From: Clostridia bacterium
GTDB taxonomy: Bacteria; Bacillota; Clostridia; Oscillospirales; CAG-272
Reading direction: 5' to 3'
Length of the DNA: 36,422 nt
Assembly (NCBI GenBank): GCA_017450885.1
Contig: JAFSSR010000113.1
Coordinates: forward strand, 1-36,422
The notes under the pieces were generated by a model. That model saw only the letters and a list, made by a program, of their open reading frames with translations. It was not told the DNA's origin and searched no databases. A program made the position numbers and the translations under genes. Below, piece by piece: positions 5,901 to 14,535 of the stretch; the first letter of the stretch is position 1, and every line of letters starts with the position of its first letter.

Positions 5901-7346
5901 ATGATAAAACTAAACAAATCCGTACTCCGCGATAAGATCTACGCCTGCTGGATCGGAAAGAACATCGGCGGCACCATGGGCGGCCCGTTTGAAGGAACGA
6001 CCGAGATACAGTCTATCGAGGGCTTCACCACCCCCGAGGGGACGGTGCTTCCCAACGACGATCTCGATCTTCAGCTCATATGGCTCAAGGCGCTTGAAGA
6101 CAAGGGCGCGTACAATATCAATTCCCAGCTTCTCGGCGAATACTGGCTGAACTATATTTCCCCGACCTGGAACGAGTACGGGATAGGGAAGAGCAACCTT
6201 ATGCTCGGGCTCCTGCCTCCGCTCTCGGGCGAGTACGAGAACTACTGGAAAAACTCCAACGGCGCGTGGATACGCTCCGAGGTCTGGGCGTGCGTTACGC
6301 CCGGATGTCCCGACGTAGCCATAAAGTACGCCGTCGAGGACGCCATGGTCGACCACGGGATGAGCGAGGGAACTTACGCCGAGATGTTCACCGCCGCCGT
6401 AGAGTCCGCGGCGTTCGTCGTCGACGACATTTTCGATCTTATCAAGATCGGACTTTCCAAGATCCCTCAGAACTGCCGCGTCGCGCAGAGCGTGCGCACC
6501 GCCGTTGAGTGCTATCACAAAAATCTTGACTGGAAGGAAGCCCGCGAAAAGATCGTAAAGGAAAACCGCGACCTCGGATGGTTCCAGGCTCCCGGAAATA
6601 TTGCCTTCACTATGATCGGCCTTCTCTGGGGCAAGGGCGACTTCAAAAAGTCGATGACCATCGCCATCAACTGCGGCGACGATACCGATTGCACCGGAGC
6701 GACCTGCGGCGCGCTTATGGGAATAATGGGCGGTACAGCCGCCATCCCCGCCGACTGGCGCAAGTATATAGGCGACAAGATCGTAACCATCGCCATCAAC
6801 CGCGGCGACGCCTGGGGAATGCCCCAGACCTGCACGGAGCTTACCAACCGCGTTTTCGGACTTGTCGGTCAGGTCCTTTACGCCAACAGATGCCACCATA
6901 TCGGACTTGTCGATGAGGATAACGACCTTTCCGAGCTTGACGTCGGAAAGCTCTGCGACTCTGACGCCGCCAAGCGCGTATACAGCCGCCCTGCCTGGTC
7001 TTACGAAGTGGACTTCATCCATACCAGGGCGACCGTTATCTTCGGCGCCGAGCCTCGTATCGCCCCTCTCGGAGAGCTCAAATTCAAGCTCTCCCTGCTC
7101 AGCGAGCTCCCCGACCCGAGGAACATGACCTTCAAGTGGTATCTGCCCGAAGGCTGGAAGATCTCCGGCCCCGGAAGCTGCTATCTCCGCCACTATTATC
7201 CCGATCCTCAACACGGACCTACCGTCTGCGAGTTCACCCTGACCGCGGGCGAAACGGTCGAGCCGTTCACCCGGATAATATGCGAGGCGGCGGCGCCCGG
7301 TCGTCCGACCGCCGGACTTATCCCGATCACCGTTTTAGGCGCTTGA
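5901..7346 (+). CDS. ADP-ribosylglycohydrolase family protein with C-terminal beta-rich extension
   Basis: A 481-residue protein. The first ~340 residues match the ADP-ribosylglycohydrolase (DraG/ARH) fold: an early GKNIGGTMGGPFEG segment, an acidic metal site NDDLD (52-56), and the late CGDDTDCTG site (258-266). These are the two clusters that bind the paired magnesium ions used to cleave ADP-ribose from targets. The last ~110 residues look like a beta-sandwich of unknown role. There is no signal peptide, so it is cytoplasmic. A good ribosome binding site (AAAGGAG) precedes ATG 5901. Its position 37 nt behind thrS suggests read-through from the T-box-controlled transcript. The substrate (protein, nucleic acid or small ADP-ribose compound) is not evident; some family members act on other substrates. 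Confidence 0.85.
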   Translation: MIKLNKSVLRDKIYACWIGKNIGGTMGGPFEGTTEIQSIEGFTTPEGTVLPNDDLDLQLIWLKALEDKGAYNINSQLLGEYWLNYISPTWNEYGIGKSNLMLGLLPPLSGEYENYWKNSNGAWIRSEVWACVTPGCPDVAIKYAVEDAMVDHGMSEGTYAEMFTAAVESAAFVVDDIFDLIKIGLSKIPQNCRVAQSVRTAVECYHKNLDWKEAREKIVKENRDLGWFQAPGNIAFTMIGLLWGKGDFKKSMTIAINCGDDTDCTGATCGALMGIMGGTAAIPADWRKYIGDKIVTIAINRGDAWGMPQTCTELTNRVFGLVGQVLYANRCHHIGLVDEDNDLSELDVGKLCDSDAAKRVYSRPAWSYEVDFIHTRATVIFGAEPRIAPLGELKFKLSLLSELPDPRNMTFKWYLPEGWKISGPGSCYLRHYYPDPQHGPTVCEFTLTAGETVEPFTRIICEAAAPGRPTAGLIPITVLGA

Positions 7347-7367: not shown

Positions 7368-7405
7368 TAAAGAGCGGCTTTCCGTTAACGGAAAACCGCT
7401 CTTTA
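7368..7405. terminator. Bidirectional terminator
   Basis: A nearly perfect 38-nt palindrome with one C-A mismatch (arms 7368-7386 and 7387-7405). It lies between the convergent ADP-ribosylglycohydrolase and deacetylase-fusion genes. Both flanks end in a TTTA-type tract. Confidence 0.75.
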
Positions 7406-7419
7406 GTTATGAATGGTCG

Positions 7420-9261
7420 TCAGCCGTTCATCGCAAGATAATCGAGAAGCTGTTTATCCGTGGTGTTGCTGCTTACGGTATAACGGCCTAAATCGACCAA
7501 TGATTGTCCGAGACCGGGCGCTATTTCGTTTACACGACTTTTATCCGTAGAGAAAGTAAAGACGTATCCGCGGCTGACGAGTATTGCGTCCGCGGTCTTG
7601 TTCACTTTGCCTTTCGGAAATGAAAAAGCGTAAGGTTCGTCAAGTCCGCCGTCGGTGAAAAGCGTATTTTGAAGATCTATATCACTATTTACAGCATTAT
7701 AGTACTCATCCATGCTTTCTTCTTTGAAGCGATTTGCGCTTGTCCTTGCCGGTGTGTTTTCCTCGAATTTCTTGTATTGGTGCATATCGAATGTGTGAGA
7801 CTGTATCGAGACGTATCCGGACTGCGACATTTCAACAGCCTCTTCGATTGAGAAATGAGGTATCATCTTTTTTCCGGTATCTTTATACGTATTCTTTCCC
7901 GCCGAGCATCCAATCATAAAAACAGTCGCTTTCGCCCCCTCTTCTTTAATTATCGGATAGGCTGTGCTGTAATTGGAGGAATACCCGTCGTCAAAAGTGA
8001 GCAGTACCGGATATTCGGGAAGTGGGATCCCGCGGTAAACGTAATTTTTCACGTCCTCGAGAGAAACGAATTGATAGCCGTTATCTTTGATCAGTTTAAT
8101 TTGCCGCCTCAGCTCGTCACTGTGAATATTTGTCGTAGACTGCTTTGAATTATCGTTTGTGTTGTGATAAAGGAGTACCGGGACGCGTACTGCCTGCCGG
8201 GAGCAGATCGCATCTTTTGCGGTATTCTTCATTTCCGCCGCGGAATATATCTTCGATGAAGAAAACTCGTATCCAAAATGTTCGGGAAGATATATATCTT
8301 TTTCGCCGGCTTCAGCGCCGATCACCATATCGGCGGTCGCGTTTCTCGTATGTGTAAGATCATAAAAATATCTTGCGTCGAAGGAAATAGGCGAAACGGA
8401 ATAATTCCGGTAATCTGTGATATTTGCAAGGCCGGAGAACAATCTGTCGATGCTCTCATCGGTAAACAATTCTAACTGTTCTATGTATACCGGAGTAAAC
8501 ACGACGGTCAAGGTCGTTCCCGATATATCACAGAGCCGTTTGATCTCGGCTACGTCGTTGAGACACTCGTCTATCCTTGCAAGCTCGCTTTTTGAATTTG
8601 CGGCAGGAAAGTCGTCGCTGTGGAGCTGCATATATTCTTCAAGAGTGCCGATCGCCTCCGCGTCCCTGATCCTTTTGTCGTAGCAGCCCGACTCCTGAAT
8701 AAAAACGTCTGCTTTTTTGGGCAGTTCTTCATCCTCCGAGCGCGCTTTCAGCTTTTTGAAGGCGTGACCGGGACTTGCGAAAGCGAAGGCGGCGTAATAT
8801 GACAGTGGACTTTCTCCGGTGACGCGGTAGTTTTCCTTGTCGTTCAGATCTCCGCTGTTCTTCCGAACGTGATTGGCTTCACTCATCCCCAAAACAAGAA
8901 AAATTCGTTTTACGTCGTCGTTCTCTGTCAGATATTTGACCAGCTTTACGTCGTACGCTGTGTCGGATCCATAGTGGAACATATTATAAAAACTACCGCC
9001 GAAACTCTTGTTAAGAGTCTCCGGAAGATAAGATGCCGCATTTGACGATCCGATAACGTAAGAGTCGAATTTGTCAAAATTCTTCGTAACGTAAGTGACC
9101 TTGCTGTTCCTGGGATTTAAAGTCTGCGTGTACCCGCCCCAGTCCATCACGGGGTCGCCGAATGCGTTGAACGGGTCGACGGCTACGTTGAGGCCGATCC
9201 AGCATAAAACGGCGAATAATAAGGCGGAGATAAACATCAAAAACCATTTTTTTGCATTCAT
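7420..9261 (-). CDS. DltD/AlgJ-like SGNH domain fused to PgaB/IcaB-type polysaccharide deacetylase
   Basis: A 613-residue protein anchored by one N-terminal membrane helix (about 5-28), the rest presumably outside. Residues ~30-345 resemble the DltD/AlgJ SGNH-like group: VIGSSN gives a candidate nucleophile Ser73, and YDLTH gives the matching Asp301-x-x-His304. Residues ~358-613 form a NodB (carbohydrate esterase 4) domain: TFDDG with Asp424 (base) and Asp425 (metal), and SHTFDMH with His489 and His494. The five-residue His-to-His spacing matches PgaB/IcaB-like poly-N-acetylglucosamine deacetylases; ordinary NodB enzymes have HTxxH. It is the last gene of a tight four-gene Dlt-like operon, 9 nt behind the MBOAT gene. 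The likely role is acyl hand-over to, and N-deacetylation of, one extracellular polymer; this is inference. Confidence 0.85.
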   Translation of the reverse strand: MNAKKWFLMFISALLFAVLCWIGLNVAVDPFNAFGDPVMDWGGYTQTLNPRNSKVTYVTKNFDKFDSYVIGSSNAASYLPETLNKSFGGSFYNMFHYGSDTAYDVKLVKYLTENDDVKRIFLVLGMSEANHVRKNSGDLNDKENYRVTGESPLSYYAAFAFASPGHAFKKLKARSEDEELPKKADVFIQESGCYDKRIRDAEAIGTLEEYMQLHSDDFPAANSKSELARIDECLNDVAEIKRLCDISGTTLTVVFTPVYIEQLELFTDESIDRLFSGLANITDYRNYSVSPISFDARYFYDLTHTRNATADMVIGAEAGEKDIYLPEHFGYEFSSSKIYSAAEMKNTAKDAICSRQAVRVPVLLYHNTNDNSKQSTTNIHSDELRRQIKLIKDNGYQFVSLEDVKNYVYRGIPLPEYPVLLTFDDGYSSNYSTAYPIIKEEGAKATVFMIGCSAGKNTYKDTGKKMIPHFSIEEAVEMSQSGYVSIQSHTFDMHQYKKFEENTPARTSANRFKEESMDEYYNAVNSDIDLQNTLFTDGGLDEPYAFSFPKGKVNKTADAILVSRGYVFTFSTDKSRVNEIAPGLGQSLVDLGRYTVSSNTTDKQLLDYLAMNG

Positions 9262-9270
9262 AGCCGCCTC

Positions 9271-10818
9271 CTACACGTTTTCGTAAACGTACGATATCGG
9301 GACGTAATTTGAATTTGCGTAGATCCCGATAACGATTATCACAAGACATACGGACAACACCGCAAACTGAACGTACCATTTTTTGCGGCAGAAGCTTTCT
9401 ATGGGGTCGATCCCTTTTTCTTTCAGCGCGCTTATAAAAATGAGAAGTCCGCAGGCGACCGCCAGTCTGACTGTCATAAACGTGTCAAAATAAGCGGCGA
9501 GCGTATATTTCGGGTCGCCGGAAGGCGCAAACGAAAAGGTTCGTCCCAGCATCGTGAAAGCCTGAGTCAAAGAGCTTGAATTGGAAAAATAACGTCCTAT
9601 AACGACAATGACGTTGGTTCTTATTATCCCCCAGATCAGCAGCGGTACTGCGGCAGTTCTGCCGTTTAGCCGTTTGCGGATCCTCGCTCCGACAGGCGCC
9701 CATATAAGTCCGAGAGACATCAGCGTTCCGTTCCATATACCGTATGCTATGTTCTGCCAACCCGGACCCTGCCATATCCCGACCGCAAGAAAAACGATAA
9801 AAGTCGCGATGCACGGGGTCACTCGCTTTGCGGAGCCGGGAGACATATGCTTTTTTGCAAATTTGGTGATCTTTGCAAATCTCTTTGAAAGCGCTATAGG
9901 ATAAAAGAGATAGTCCTTCATCCATTCGCCGAGCGAGATATGCCATCTCCTCCAGAAGTCGGCAAGAGAGGTCGAAAAATACGGCTGTCTGAAGTTTTCC
10001 GACATCTTTATGCCAAAGAGTTGAGAGGCTCCGCAAAGAAGATCGATCCCGCCCGAAAAATCACAGTAAAGCTGCAGGCAGTACAGCGCCGCGCCGAGAA
10101 GAATGACGCCGCCGGAGCGTGATTGATAATTGGAGTATACGTCGGCGACGAAAGGCGCAAGAGCGTCCGCGACGGCGGCCTTTTTCAGTATACCGAAGAT
10201 CATCCGCAATAAGCCGGTTCGTATATTTTCCCAATCCAGAGGACTGCCGGCGTAAAGCTGTCCCGATAGCAGATCGAAGCGGTTTATCGGTCCCTGCACC
10301 ATCTGCGGGAACCAGCAAACGAAAAGCAAGTATTTAAGCGGATTTTTTTCGGGAGGATACTTTCCTTTTGCCGTGTCGATAAGATATGCCGAAGTCTGGA
10401 ATATATAAAACGAAATTCCCAGAGGCAAAATAAAACTCGGCAGAGGTATAGCCGTTCGTCCGATCAGGGTGTTTACGGTCGTGACAAAAAAACCGCCGTA
10501 CTTCAGTACTCCGAGAACGGAAAAGTTTATAATCAGCGCGGGAGCAAGAATAGCCCGTTTCCTGCGCTTGTCGCGCTTTTTTACCGACGCGGGATCTTCG
10601 CCATCCGCAACGGATGGCTTTTTACCGAGCAGAAGGGAGGCGAGATATGTAAACAGAGCCGTTGCAAGCAGATACAGCCCTGCCTTTATTCCGTTCAACA
10701 AGTAAAACGTGACGGAAGCACAAAGCAGGACAAACCATCTGATTTTCTTCGGCGCTGCATAATAAAAGACCGCCGATATCAGCAGAAATAGGAGAAAATA
10801 GGCTCCGTTTACGGACAT
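9271..10818 (-). CDS. MBOAT-family membrane O-acyltransferase (AlgI/DltB-like) with a replaced catalytic histidine
   Basis: A 515-residue multi-pass membrane protein of the MBOAT family, which moves acyl or aminoacyl groups across the membrane to polysaccharides. Family signatures are clear: PLGISFYIFQTSAYLID (133-148), WFPQMVQGPINRF (169-181), LQLYCDFSGGIDL (248-260) and FWRRWHISL (288-296, His293). The usual GxWHG carries the invariant active-site His; here it reads GIWQG with Gln350 (codon CAG at 9771-9769). The following WGxxHG is YGIWNG. The C-terminus has an aromatic tail (PISYVYENV). It starts 1 nt after the carrier-protein stop and precedes the SGNH-deacetylase gene, so it surely works with them. 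If the Gln is real, chemistry may differ from standard MBOATs or be impaired. Confidence 0.9.
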   Translation of the reverse strand: MSVNGAYFLLFLLISAVFYYAAPKKIRWFVLLCASVTFYLLNGIKAGLYLLATALFTYLASLLLGKKPSVADGEDPASVKKRDKRRKRAILAPALIINFSVLGVLKYGGFFVTTVNTLIGRTAIPLPSFILPLGISFYIFQTSAYLIDTAKGKYPPEKNPLKYLLFVCWFPQMVQGPINRFDLLSGQLYAGSPLDWENIRTGLLRMIFGILKKAAVADALAPFVADVYSNYQSRSGGVILLGAALYCLQLYCDFSGGIDLLCGASQLFGIKMSENFRQPYFSTSLADFWRRWHISLGEWMKDYLFYPIALSKRFAKITKFAKKHMSPGSAKRVTPCIATFIVFLAVGIWQGPGWQNIAYGIWNGTLMSLGLIWAPVGARIRKRLNGRTAAVPLLIWGIIRTNVIVVIGRYFSNSSSLTQAFTMLGRTFSFAPSGDPKYTLAAYFDTFMTVRLAVACGLLIFISALKEKGIDPIESFCRKKWYVQFAVLSVCLVIIVIGIYANSNYVPISYVYENV

Positions 10819-10819
10819 A

Positions 10820-11050
10820 TCATTCTTCTTCTTTGAGTTTATTTACCAGATTGAAGATCGCTTCCGCGGAATTGAAGTTTTCCGCGGTGAGGTCGTCAAC
10901 GGTTATTTCGATCCCGAATTCGTCGGAAAGCTCGCCGACGATCATGACGATGTCGAGCGATTCCAATATCCCGTTGTCGATAAGAGCAGTTTCGGTCTCA
11001 AAATCAACCCCGGGGCAGCATCCTTCAAGTATTTCCAATATTTTTTCCAT
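10820..11050 (-). CDS. DltC-like acyl/aminoacyl carrier protein
   Basis: A 76-residue acidic carrier protein of the phosphopantetheine-binding family. The attachment serine is Ser31 in NGILESLDIV, which fits the GLLDS-type motif of DltC. Four helices of the usual size can be drawn, with FGIEITVDDL leading into the third helix. It lies 2 nt behind the adenylation-enzyme gene and 1 nt before the MBOAT gene, so it should carry the thioester-bound substrate between these two. A phosphopantetheinyl transferase must act on it; none is in this window. Confidence 0.9.
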   Translation of the reverse strand: MEKILEILEGCCPGVDFETETALIDNGILESLDIVMIVGELSDEFGIEITVDDLTAENFNSAEAIFNLVNKLKEEE

Positions 11051-11052
11051 TT

Positions 11053-12543
11053 TTATAAATCCTTTGCCATTTGTAATAAAACTTTTCTGTCTATCTTTCC
11101 GGTCCGTGTCTTCGGAAAGTCGTCGAGCTTTACGGCGTTTTTAGGAACCATAAATCTCGGAAGCGTTTTGCGTATATGTGAGAGCAGGGATAAGGAGTCG
11201 GTATTTCCTGTGTAAAAGATGGTGATGACCGATTTTTCCTCGTCGTATACGCAGGCGCAGACCTCCGCGTCGGGGGCGGATGAGGCGCAAAGCTCTATCT
11301 CCGATAATTCTATGCGGTGTCCCATGTGTTTTATCTGAGTGTCTTTGCGTCCCGTGAAGTACAGCTTACCGTCTTTTTTGAACGAGAGGTCGCCGGTGCG
11401 GTATATCCTTTCGGAGTATCTTTTTTCGAGAGGATTTTGTATAAAAACGGCTTTCGAGAGATCCGGCCTCCCGAAATATCCCGTGGAAAGACAGCTTCCT
11501 GAAACACAAATCTCACCTATGTCTCCCTCGCGCAAGACGGGATCTTCGCCGTTGAGGAGAAATACTGAACAATTCGGAAAAGGAACTCCGATCGGTACGG
11601 CGCGGTCGAGTTTATCCTCACGGCCGATTATGTGATATGTGCAGTTGCAGGTGATCTCGGTAGGGCCGTAGAGATTGACAAACCTTACGTCGGGAAATGA
11701 ACTCATCCAGTATTCAAGCGTTTTAGGAGGGATGGTCTCTCCTGAAAACATAACGTCTTTCAGAAACATCGGTCTATCCGATCTGAAAGCGTTGAGAGCT
11801 GAAAGCACTCTTAGAGCGGGGACCGCCCAGATGAGGGTGTTAATTTTTCTTTCGTTTAGCCTTTGTATCAGCAGGGAGGGAAGAGTAAAAAGCTTTTTTT
11901 CAAGTATTTCGAGCCTTCCCCCGGTTTTTAGTGAAATAAAAATATCTTTTACGGATACGTCAAAATCGAACGGGGCTTGATTTCCGAATACCGAGCCGTC
12001 TTCAAATCCGAAAACAGAACAGAATTGCTCTGTCATATCAACGACTCCGCGGTGGGTGATCGTGACCCCCTTGGGCACTCCGGTTGAACCGGAAGTAAAC
12101 AGAACGTAAAGGGGATCGGTATCCTTTCTTTCCAACCACGGAGAAGCCTGCGGGGCTTCGCAGTCCAGATCCTGTGCCGCGACCCGCTGCTTTTCGGAAA
12201 TACCTTTCGGAAGCCTGTCGTCGTTGTCGATTATAAAATGGGGGTCTATCACTGAAAGCATATCGGCTATTCGGTTTTCGGGCAGAAGGGGGTCGATGGG
12301 AACGTAGAAATTTCCGCTGTACGCAACCGAAAGGAAAAAGATAATGTCAAGAGGCTTATGCTCCGAAACAACGGCGATCGGCTTGTTTTCCGATCCGAAC
12401 CGATAAGCGATGGCTTGCCCGTATTTTTTGACCATGCTCCATTCCTGCGCATAGGTATAGGAGATATCCGCGCCCGCAAGCGAAACGCGCTCCGGATATT
12501 TTTCTGCGTCATATTCGAGATAAGATATAATGTTGCAGATCAT
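11053..12543 (-). CDS. DltA-like adenylation enzyme (amino-acid:carrier ligase)
   Basis: A 496-residue ANL-superfamily enzyme that activates a carboxylate with ATP and loads it on the adjacent carrier protein. Core motifs: FTSGSTGVPKGV (149-160), LYGPTE (291-296), YRTGDL, GRKDTQIKHMGHRIEL, and the C-terminal lysine loop KTRTGKIDRK. The region PFDFDVSVKD (191-200) aligns with the DltA stretch whose Asp grips the substrate amine, giving Asp195, so an amino acid is likely. DltA has Cys in its FCGE motif, tied to D-alanine selectivity; here it is FSGE with Ser267. The substrate may therefore not be D-alanine. GGAG lies 7 nt before ATG 12543. It heads the four-gene operon driven from about 12579-12607. 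Confidence 0.9.
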   Translation of the reverse strand: MICNIISYLEYDAEKYPERVSLAGADISYTYAQEWSMVKKYGQAIAYRFGSENKPIAVVSEHKPLDIIFFLSVAYSGNFYVPIDPLLPENRIADMLSVIDPHFIIDNDDRLPKGISEKQRVAAQDLDCEAPQASPWLERKDTDPLYVLFTSGSTGVPKGVTITHRGVVDMTEQFCSVFGFEDGSVFGNQAPFDFDVSVKDIFISLKTGGRLEILEKKLFTLPSLLIQRLNERKINTLIWAVPALRVLSALNAFRSDRPMFLKDVMFSGETIPPKTLEYWMSSFPDVRFVNLYGPTEITCNCTYHIIGREDKLDRAVPIGVPFPNCSVFLLNGEDPVLREGDIGEICVSGSCLSTGYFGRPDLSKAVFIQNPLEKRYSERIYRTGDLSFKKDGKLYFTGRKDTQIKHMGHRIELSEIELCASSAPDAEVCACVYDEEKSVITIFYTGNTDSLSLLSHIRKTLPRFMVPKNAVKLDDFPKTRTGKIDRKVLLQMAKDL

Positions 12544-13965: not shown

Positions 13966-14535
13966 TCAGGATATATATATCAGCTTTGTCTTGTCGAAAT
14001 TCTTCAGGAATTTGCGCTTGATTATATAGAAATAGTTCAGCTTTATCATCCAAAGCCCGTCTTCGATCTTCGCGGCGGCGTTCACACCGTCTTTAAACAA
14101 CGGACGCGAGACCACGAACACCGTGTATCCCTGATCCTTGAAGTCTCTTGACATCCCGCGGAGGAACGACGAACGCTTGCTTCCCCATCCCCGGCTCGAA
14201 AAGATGAACATGACCTTTTCGCTCCCGTTCAGTATAGGCGCCAGCTCGCGGCCGAACGTCCTGAACTGTATAAGGCTGAAAAGCGAGAACACTCCGACCG
14301 TGACGAGAAATACCGGGACGAGGACAAGCAGCACGGAGGACAGTATTATCAGCACCGCGCTCGTCTCGATAAACGATATTATCATCGACATGTATTTTAT
14401 CAGCCTCGATATCAGCATATAGCTGCGCGCGTACTTCATCAGCCTGTTTGCGCGGCTGAACGCGCCGTTACGCTTTATTACGTCTCCGTAAAAGCCGAAG
14501 ATTGTTTTATAATCCTGAAAACCTTTGTGAAACAT
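13966..14535 (-). CDS. Small membrane protein of unknown function
   Basis: A 189-residue protein. A basic N-terminal stretch (1-50) is followed by a long hydrophobic double segment (about 52-90), consistent with a membrane hairpin. A cytoplasmic C-terminal half (95-189) follows, starting with KVMFIFSSRGWGSKRSSF and containing alternating beta/alpha elements (GYTVFVVSRPLF). That half hints at a small alpha/beta domain, but I cannot name a family. AAAGGCGG precedes the ATG. It is 46 nt downstream of the QueG-like gene and is closed by a good terminator, so the two are probably co-transcribed. Confidence 0.65.
   Translation of the reverse strand: MFHKGFQDYKTIFGFYGDVIKRNGAFSRANRLMKYARSYMLISRLIKYMSMIISFIETSAVLIILSSVLLVLVPVFLVTVGVFSLFSLIQFRTFGRELAPILNGSEKVMFIFSSRGWGSKRSSFLRGMSRDFKDQGYTVFVVSRPLFKDGVNAAAKIEDGLWMIKLNYFYIIKRKFLKNFDKTKLIYIS

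Follow-up and report, generated by a model that had tools for sequence, protein, structure and literature searches.

Gene content of the locus

The window, meaning the whole stretch of 36,422 nucleotides of Clostridia bacterium DNA that was analysed (GCA_017450885.1, contig JAFSSR010000113.1), carries on its minus strand four genes in the order ligase, carrier protein, MBOAT and fusion, separated by gaps of 2, 1 and 9 bases. The last gene (7420..9261, minus strand) is an intact open reading frame with an ATG start and encodes a fusion protein of 613 aa, in which an N-terminal membrane helix is followed by a DltD-like SGNH part and a polysaccharide deacetylase part. A preliminary description of this DNA had assigned the fusion an MBOAT partner, and that gene was located 9 bases upstream. 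The genome (2.2 Mb in 235 contigs) contains one copy of the fusion.

The first gene (11053..12543, minus strand) encodes a protein of 496 aa that matched profiles of DltA-like adenylating ligases. The Asp of its FDxSV motif, which was kept in 14 of 14 ligases, should bind an amino group. The pockets of the window-type ligases and of those found with a GNAT protein differ, as read by eye at the presumed code positions, and the window ligase has Ser at what we take to be the selectivity Cys of DltA. The second gene (10820..11050, minus strand) encodes an acyl carrier protein of 76 aa that matched PF00550 and DltC-type models, with a probable phosphopantetheine site at Ser31 (10958-10960). The third gene (9271..10818, minus strand) encodes an MBOAT with a DltB-like core and a longer C-terminus, as judged from profiles and alignment to DltB, and scored 34.4 bits against the Pfam MBOAT model (cut-off 27). 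All three proteins fell below the Dlt NCBIfam cut-offs (ligase 274/560 bits, MBOAT 140/375, carrier 21/52). The DltX microprotein was absent from the operon, since gaps of this size leave no room for it. With a DltA-like ligase and a carrier protein encoded ahead of the MBOAT, an amino acid bound to the carrier is the most likely donor.

Between the operon and a convergent gene that ends at 7346 lies a 17-bp hairpin (7368..7405, -30.9 kcal/mol, z -7.1) with a weak U-run, a probable two-way terminator that was missed by a pattern scan. A promoter scan was uninformative (11 sites, with 7.5 expected). The convergent gene (5901-7346) encodes an ADP-ribosylglycohydrolase-family protein with a C-terminal extension. 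Elsewhere in the window are a protein with repeats resembling S-layer homology domains (155-646) and a 189-aa frame (13966-14535) that has hydrophobic stretches and matched nothing in Pfam or NCBIfam.

Two predicted active sites in one chain

The structure model of the fusion predicted one N-terminal helix at residues 3-28 (9178..9255, minus strand), hydrophobic in sequence and of presumed orientation, in keeping with the single membrane helix that had been proposed to stand ahead of both halves. From structure comparison, the SGNH/DltD-like domain spans about residues 43-340 (8242..9135, minus strand); profile and structure matches place the PgaB/IcaB/PplD-like deacetylase domain at residues 355-613 (7423..8199, minus strand). 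The motifs located in the chain were GSS (71-73), DLTH (301-304), TFDDG (422-426), SHTFDMH (488-494) and SFPKG (547-551). The preliminary description had read GSS, D301-x-x-H304, TFDDG and the pair H489/H494 in one frame, and each was found exactly where it had been placed.

Within GSS the last residue, Ser73 (9043..9045, minus strand; 28/32 rows), is the likely SGNH nucleophile, because the middle position varies among the aligned fusions (S, C, P, A, G, T) and Ser73 is constant in every row with an intact SGNH site. Motif and alignment assign the remainder of the triad to D301-L-T-H304 (8350..8361, minus strand). In the deacetylase half, TFDDG (7984..7998, minus strand) would supply the catalytic and metal-binding Asp pair, and H489-x4-H494 (7780..7797, minus strand) the metal histidines; His366, within a YH motif, is a further conserved deacetylase residue. 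The five-residue spacing of the histidines, earlier likened to that of PgaB/IcaB, agreed residue by residue with E. coli PgaB (3vus). Across 14 aligned fusion proteins, G71, S73, D301, H304, R306 and N307 were invariant. These invariant residues, together with a deacetylase profile match above cut-off, indicated that the set of motifs is more than chance.

Folds of the two halves

That profile match was Polysacc_deac_1, the only Pfam family found in the fusion, which lies in the C-terminal half (64.9 bits, cut-off 23.1). The nearest NCBIfam models to this half were PgaB and IcaB, both well below their equivalog cut-offs (116.8/321.9 and 55.5/248.4 bits). An AlphaFold2 model of the whole fusion, built with 14 aligned relatives, had a pLDDT of 89.4 and a pTM of 0.87. 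In a comparison of this model with solved structures, the C-terminal half matched PgaB (3vus; Z 29.8, 2.8 Å over 248 residues), IcaB (4wcj; Z 27.4) and PplD (6dq3; Z 27.0). The PgaB/IcaB fold and the metal and catalytic residues H366, D424, D425, H489 and H494 are thus all present in this half.

In the whole-fusion model the N-terminal half matched DltD (6o93) with Z 11.1 over 250 residues. The half was also modelled alone from 27 sequences (pLDDT 94.2), and the first 12 Foldseek rows were then all DltD chains (E 2e-5 to 2e-3). The preliminary description had named failure to superpose on DltD/AlgJ folds as refuting its reading; superposition on DltD succeeded, with 6o93 as the top match (Z 11.7, 4.5 Å, 242 residues). 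Plain SGNH hydrolases were tied with DltD to within 1 Z, though their matches were shorter (about 155-180 residues), SGNH-type proteins made up most of ranks 1-42 (Z 7.6-11.7) before Z dropped to 5.9, and PatB was among the matches at Z 9.6-9.7. From this ranking and these match lengths, the SGNH fold of the modelled half is firm, and DltD is the SGNH member that covers most of the modelled domain. The sequence link to DltD is very weak: the fusion did not match Pfam DltD (PF04914) at E<=0.1, its own genome had 0 matches to that family, and a profile of the half compared with one real DltD gave a probability of 3% (E 0.014). Of the DltD/AlgJ-like character first suggested for this half, the DltD-like fold therefore stands, outside Pfam DltD; no specific likeness to AlgJ or AlgX was seen among the matches listed in the structure comparison.

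The MBOAT and its C-terminal tail

Alignment of the window MBOAT to DltB (8jem, 6bug) placed its RRWH motif (9940..9951, minus strand) on the His289 segment, where His293 is the retained counterpart, and its IWQG motif (9766..9777, minus strand) on the WHG segment of His336, where it has Gln350. His336 of DltB is called invariant in passages of PMC11035591. Gln was found at this place in 6/6 window-type MBOATs and in 0/31 others, all of which have His (10 of the GNAT type, 7 of the FkbH type, that of locus L092 and 13 from outside the fusion set). The FkbH-type MBOATs have RRWN instead of RRWH.

The window MBOAT ends in YVYENV (9274..9291, minus strand), the putative counterpart of the acyl-shuttle hexapeptide FXYXXF as that motif is given in a passage of PMC12148441. 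It keeps the Tyr and neither Phe. The tail Tyr was present in every MBOAT with a readable C-terminus; tails read YVYEN[VI] in the window type, F[IL]Yxx[YF] in the ligase and GNAT type and FLYFNF in the FkbH type. Passages of the same source report that the C-terminal tail of PatA is auto-acetylated, that the acetylated peptide is the donor to PatB, that an acyl-Tyr route applies to both PatA and Dlt, and that MBOAT-SGNH pathways besides Dlt lack a carrier protein (PMC12148441).

Recurrence and decay of the fusion

Protein searches found relatives of the window fusion in at least 13 of 196 genomes of the family, its own included, in at least about 20 of 394 genomes of the order, where the SGNH site is dead in four, and in at least 3 genomes outside the order in a phylum sample of 398. 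These counts are lower bounds, and the family and order samples overlap in some genomes. One relative, in an Oscillospiraceae MAG (L031), shares 46% identity with the window fusion, which suggests that the host is probably close to that family. Recurrence across family, order and phylum ruled out an assembly error or a chance frame; the fusion was recovered as 32 chains from 31 genomes.

Both sites, which the preliminary description had thought intact, do look so in the window protein, and S73/D301/H304 and the deacetylase residues were kept together in 25 of the 32 chains. Three chains retain the SGNH site alone and four the deacetylase alone, so that the SGNH residues are present in 28/32 and the five tested deacetylase residues in 29/32. 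Two further chains (L154, L155) kept the motifs on inspection. The SGNH triad alone remains in L043 and in both tandem copies of L092; the deacetylase residues alone remain in L091, L093, L094 and L098, the first three of which form one clade. In L092 (5013-8392) the two tandem fusion genes follow one MBOAT, and in both the SGNH triad is intact and the deacetylase decayed. In L043 (8078-9550) the deacetylase core is absent in frame and a C-terminal GLPQTL is retained, a motif kept in nearly all fusions, decayed ones included. Because the deacetylase has decayed in L043 and in both L092 copies with the rest retained, this part is dispensable.

A tree of deacetylase domains (L043, L072 and the two L092 rows excluded) showed the 29 fused and 24 unfused domains intermingled, and its well-supported branches forced at least 3 changes. 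A single origin of the fusion was thus unsupported. This intermingling also means that the halves of the fusion need not share a single polymer in every lineage.

Acyl suppliers beside the fusion

Three kinds of supplier genes accompany the fusion. Six loci have ligase, carrier, MBOAT and fusion without a GNAT: the window, L031, L033, L043, L079 and genome G437, whose operon is divided between two contigs (L153, L080). Ten have ligase, GNAT, carrier, MBOAT and fusion (L034, L035, L038, L040, L081-L084, L086, L154); the Pfam GNAT model was above cut-off in both of two proteins tested. Seven have MBOAT, fusion, carrier and FkbH (L037, L041, L042, L085, L087, L088, L089), and the one FkbH protein tested scored 261.9 bits (cut-off 146.7). 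Within the FkbH type no carrier was found in L089, and that of L042 was not called by the script, although its near twin L041 has one at the same place. A CotH-like protein directly follows FkbH in L041 (118-1791) and L042 (4068-5756), confirmed by Pfam CotH for L041.

The fusion lacks a nearby MBOAT in L036, L090, L155 and the four SGNH-dead loci (L091, L093, L094, L098). L032 and L039 are contig-edge loci, the contig of L092 does not include its supplier, and L100 (G643) fell outside the inspected set. Away from contig edges, an MBOAT adjoins 24/26 SGNH-intact chains and 0/4 SGNH-dead ones (Fisher p 0.0005, uncorrected for kinship). Supplier types clustered on the fusion tree (7 changes, 15.6 in shuffles), and standalone fusions without supplier genes showed no clear clustering (48/500 shuffles as low).

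Of the 394 order genomes, 80 encode MBOATs like that of the window (E<=1e-60), and about 10 of these have the fusion operon. In 13 hand-picked non-fusion MBOAT loci (L141-L152, L156), a separate ORF of 317-396 aa directly followed the MBOAT in 12; in L152 the SGNH ORF was unresolved in the ORF choice used. Pfam found no family in two of three such ORFs and a sub-threshold GDSL match in the third, and their position and GxS-like motifs suggest that they encode SGNH partners. Because 12/13 of these selected loci have the separate ORF, the fusion represents a subset of a wider MBOAT kin. The earlier proviso that most homologues might prove to be two separate genes thus holds in part for that wider kin, and the fusion is itself conserved.

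In 6/13 non-fusion loci, a PLP enzyme of the Orn/DAP/Arg decarboxylase fold lies between ligase and MBOAT (family confirmed in 2/6). These six (L141, L145, L146, L147, L148, L151) have ligase, PLP enzyme, carrier, Tyr-tail MBOAT and a separate SGNH-like ORF, with no fusion. In L143, L150 and L152 a long FkbH-type protein stands beside an MBOAT ending FIYFQF, with a separate SGNH-like ORF in 2/3. These PLP-enzyme and FkbH loci indicate that the fusion is one part of a wider set of carrier-fed MBOAT systems.

Comparison with known systems

The operon resembles Dlt in having a ligase, a carrier, a DltB-like MBOAT and a DltD-fold SGNH domain after one membrane helix, all in one operon. It differs in the lack of DltX, in the Tyr tail on the MBOAT itself, in the deacetylase fused to the SGNH domain and, in the window type, in the replacement of His336 by Gln. 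On sequence grounds it is an MBOAT-SGNH kind of system with a novel combination of parts and is not canonical Dlt, because its other three proteins are below the Dlt cut-offs, Pfam DltD is unmatched and DltX is missing. PatA/PatB, as described in passages of PMC12148441, likewise pairs an MBOAT carrying its own C-terminal Tyr tail with an SGNH partner; here, however, the Tyr tail is found alongside a carrier, and a deacetylase is joined to the SGNH partner.

The C-terminal half shares with PgaB/IcaB its fold, active-site residues and five-residue His spacing, but it is fused to an SGNH domain, falls below the PgaB and IcaB model cut-offs and has no PgaC/IcaA synthase in the same genome (0/26 genomes at E<=1e-40; above cut-off in 1/14 control genomes). 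Because that synthase is lacking, a PgaB-type polymer is probably absent, and PNAG is an unlikely acceptor without support. LTA, other teichoic-type polymers, and peptidoglycan or linkage units are possible acceptors. PplD is described in part of PMC8807736 as the de-N-acetylase of the streptococcal polysaccharide-peptidoglycan linkage unit; its fold is like that of the C-terminal half, but the solved PplD chain (227 residues) lacks an SGNH part. In staphylococcal PIA, according to passages of PMC4432689, one extracellular glycan is N-deacetylated by IcaB and O-acylated (succinylated), the latter a proposed role of IcaC. This is a precedent for two marks on one glycan, but by two separate proteins (PMC4432689). 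No description of an SGNH-deacetylase fusion or of an FkbH-fed MBOAT-SGNH system was found in the titles, abstract openings and passages of the open-licence papers that were retrieved.

Proposed function of the operon

We propose, with a probability of about 0.62, that the four genes form a Dlt-like relay in which the fusion both aminoacylates and de-N-acetylates one extracellular glycan. The ligase would adenylate an amino acid and load it onto Ser31 of the carrier protein. The MBOAT would then pass the aminoacyl group to the Tyr of its own YVYENV tail, so that no DltX microprotein would be needed. The tail would hand the group to Ser73 of the SGNH domain, which would form an ester on a polymer hydroxyl outside the membrane, and the PgaB/IcaB-like domain would de-N-acetylate hexosamines in that polymer. 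Since the deacetylase is fused to the SGNH domain, a single protein anchored in the membrane would then set both marks; joint action of the halves on one polymer we infer. In other lineages the same fusion is served by a ligase together with a GNAT acetyltransferase, or else by a protein of the FkbH type, which should load a glycerate-derived acyl group. The model follows the order of the parts and the published chemistry of Dlt and PatA; in its favour are the closely spaced genes ending at a hairpin, the folds of both halves, the conserved active sites, the adjacency of an MBOAT to SGNH-intact chains, the clustering of supplier types on the fusion tree and the Tyr in the MBOAT tails. Two features of the window MBOAT count against it: the His regarded as acting in PatA and DltB is missing, and the Tyr is the one position of FXYXXF, out of three that are fixed, which the tail retains. 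The dispensable deacetylase part, the intermingling of fused and unfused deacetylase domains and the lack of a PgaC/IcaA synthase in the 26 genomes searched also weigh against it.

Positive charge would be gained from D-Ala as well as from free amines. This argument fits the ligase type alone, because glycerate or an N-acetylated amino acid adds no positive charge, and we therefore suggest that the constant function lies in the acceptor and not in the acyl group.

Ordinary D-alanylation of LTA, with the operon replacing dltABCD and the deacetylase an unrelated activity riding on a DltD-like part, is unlikely. The A-C-B-D gene order and the DltA-like and DltB-like scores would suit it, as would a genome with no canonical DltD and with six proteins of LtaS-like length that have a sulfatase domain (one confirmed as Pfam Sulfatase). 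Those scores are nevertheless below the Dlt cut-offs for ligase, MBOAT and carrier alike, DltX is missing, Ser replaces the presumed selectivity Cys, and FkbH-fed relatives should not deliver D-Ala. Pfam DltD was found in 1/30 fusion-bearing genomes, and this one (G297) holds, besides its fusion operon, the usual dltB-C-D set with a frame of 61 aa whose end, FVYNEF, resembles the tail of DltX. A second MBOAT in the genome of the window (C212) has the C-terminus FLYFRF, and after it comes a separate protein that matched DHHW and ALGX; this locus is an ordinary two-gene MBOAT pair.

Less probable again is an acyl exchange, in which the deacetylase takes N-acetyl off a surface glycan and the SGNH domain refills the freed hexosamine amine, directly or by an O-to-N shift. 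N-aminoacyl or N-glyceryl would then replace N-acetyl, the carrier delivering an amino acid, an N-acetylated amino acid or glycerate according to lineage, and the window-type MBOAT would work with Gln in place of His. Both functions lie in one chain that is conserved with three acyl suppliers, so that the acceptor rather than the acyl group would be constant, and the free amine needed would come from the deacetylase. However, described SGNH transferases of this class form esters, according to passages of PMC12148441, and the dead-deacetylase copies in L043 and L092 retain the SGNH triad and an MBOAT.

We give little credence to a decaying window-type pathway in which the MBOAT has lost its catalytic His and the deacetylase alone still works. 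WQG instead of WHG would be expected of such decay, but the Gln is common to 6/6 MBOATs of the type, whose loci have open frames and RRWH, the tail Tyr, the carrier Ser and the SGNH triad, and the loci in which the SGNH site has truly decayed (L091, L093, L094, L098) have no adjacent MBOAT. An SGNH esterase, making the protein a two-headed deacylase of O- and N-acyl groups, is the least probable reading, for although SGNH proteins are mostly hydrolases (in a passage of PMC12148441) and hydrolases lie within 1 Z of DltD, the MBOAT adjoins nearly all SGNH-intact chains away from contig edges, and the structure matched over the greatest length, DltD, is a transferase.

Significance

Bacterial MBOAT-SGNH acylation is described, in passages of PMC12148441, as using either a carrier and DltX (Dlt) or acyl-CoA and an MBOAT that itself bears a Tyr tail (PatA type). 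The fusion operons combine carrier and tail, direct three kinds of supplier to one terminal enzyme and attach a de-N-acetylase to it. The natural losses of single sites, in three SGNH-only and four deacetylase-only chains, make the two predicted activities separable with existing proteins. If the proposed relay is correct, the window-type operons would be a natural experiment on the need of an MBOAT for its 'invariant' His, and bacteria would have more kinds of acyl group at their disposal for decorating surface glycans.
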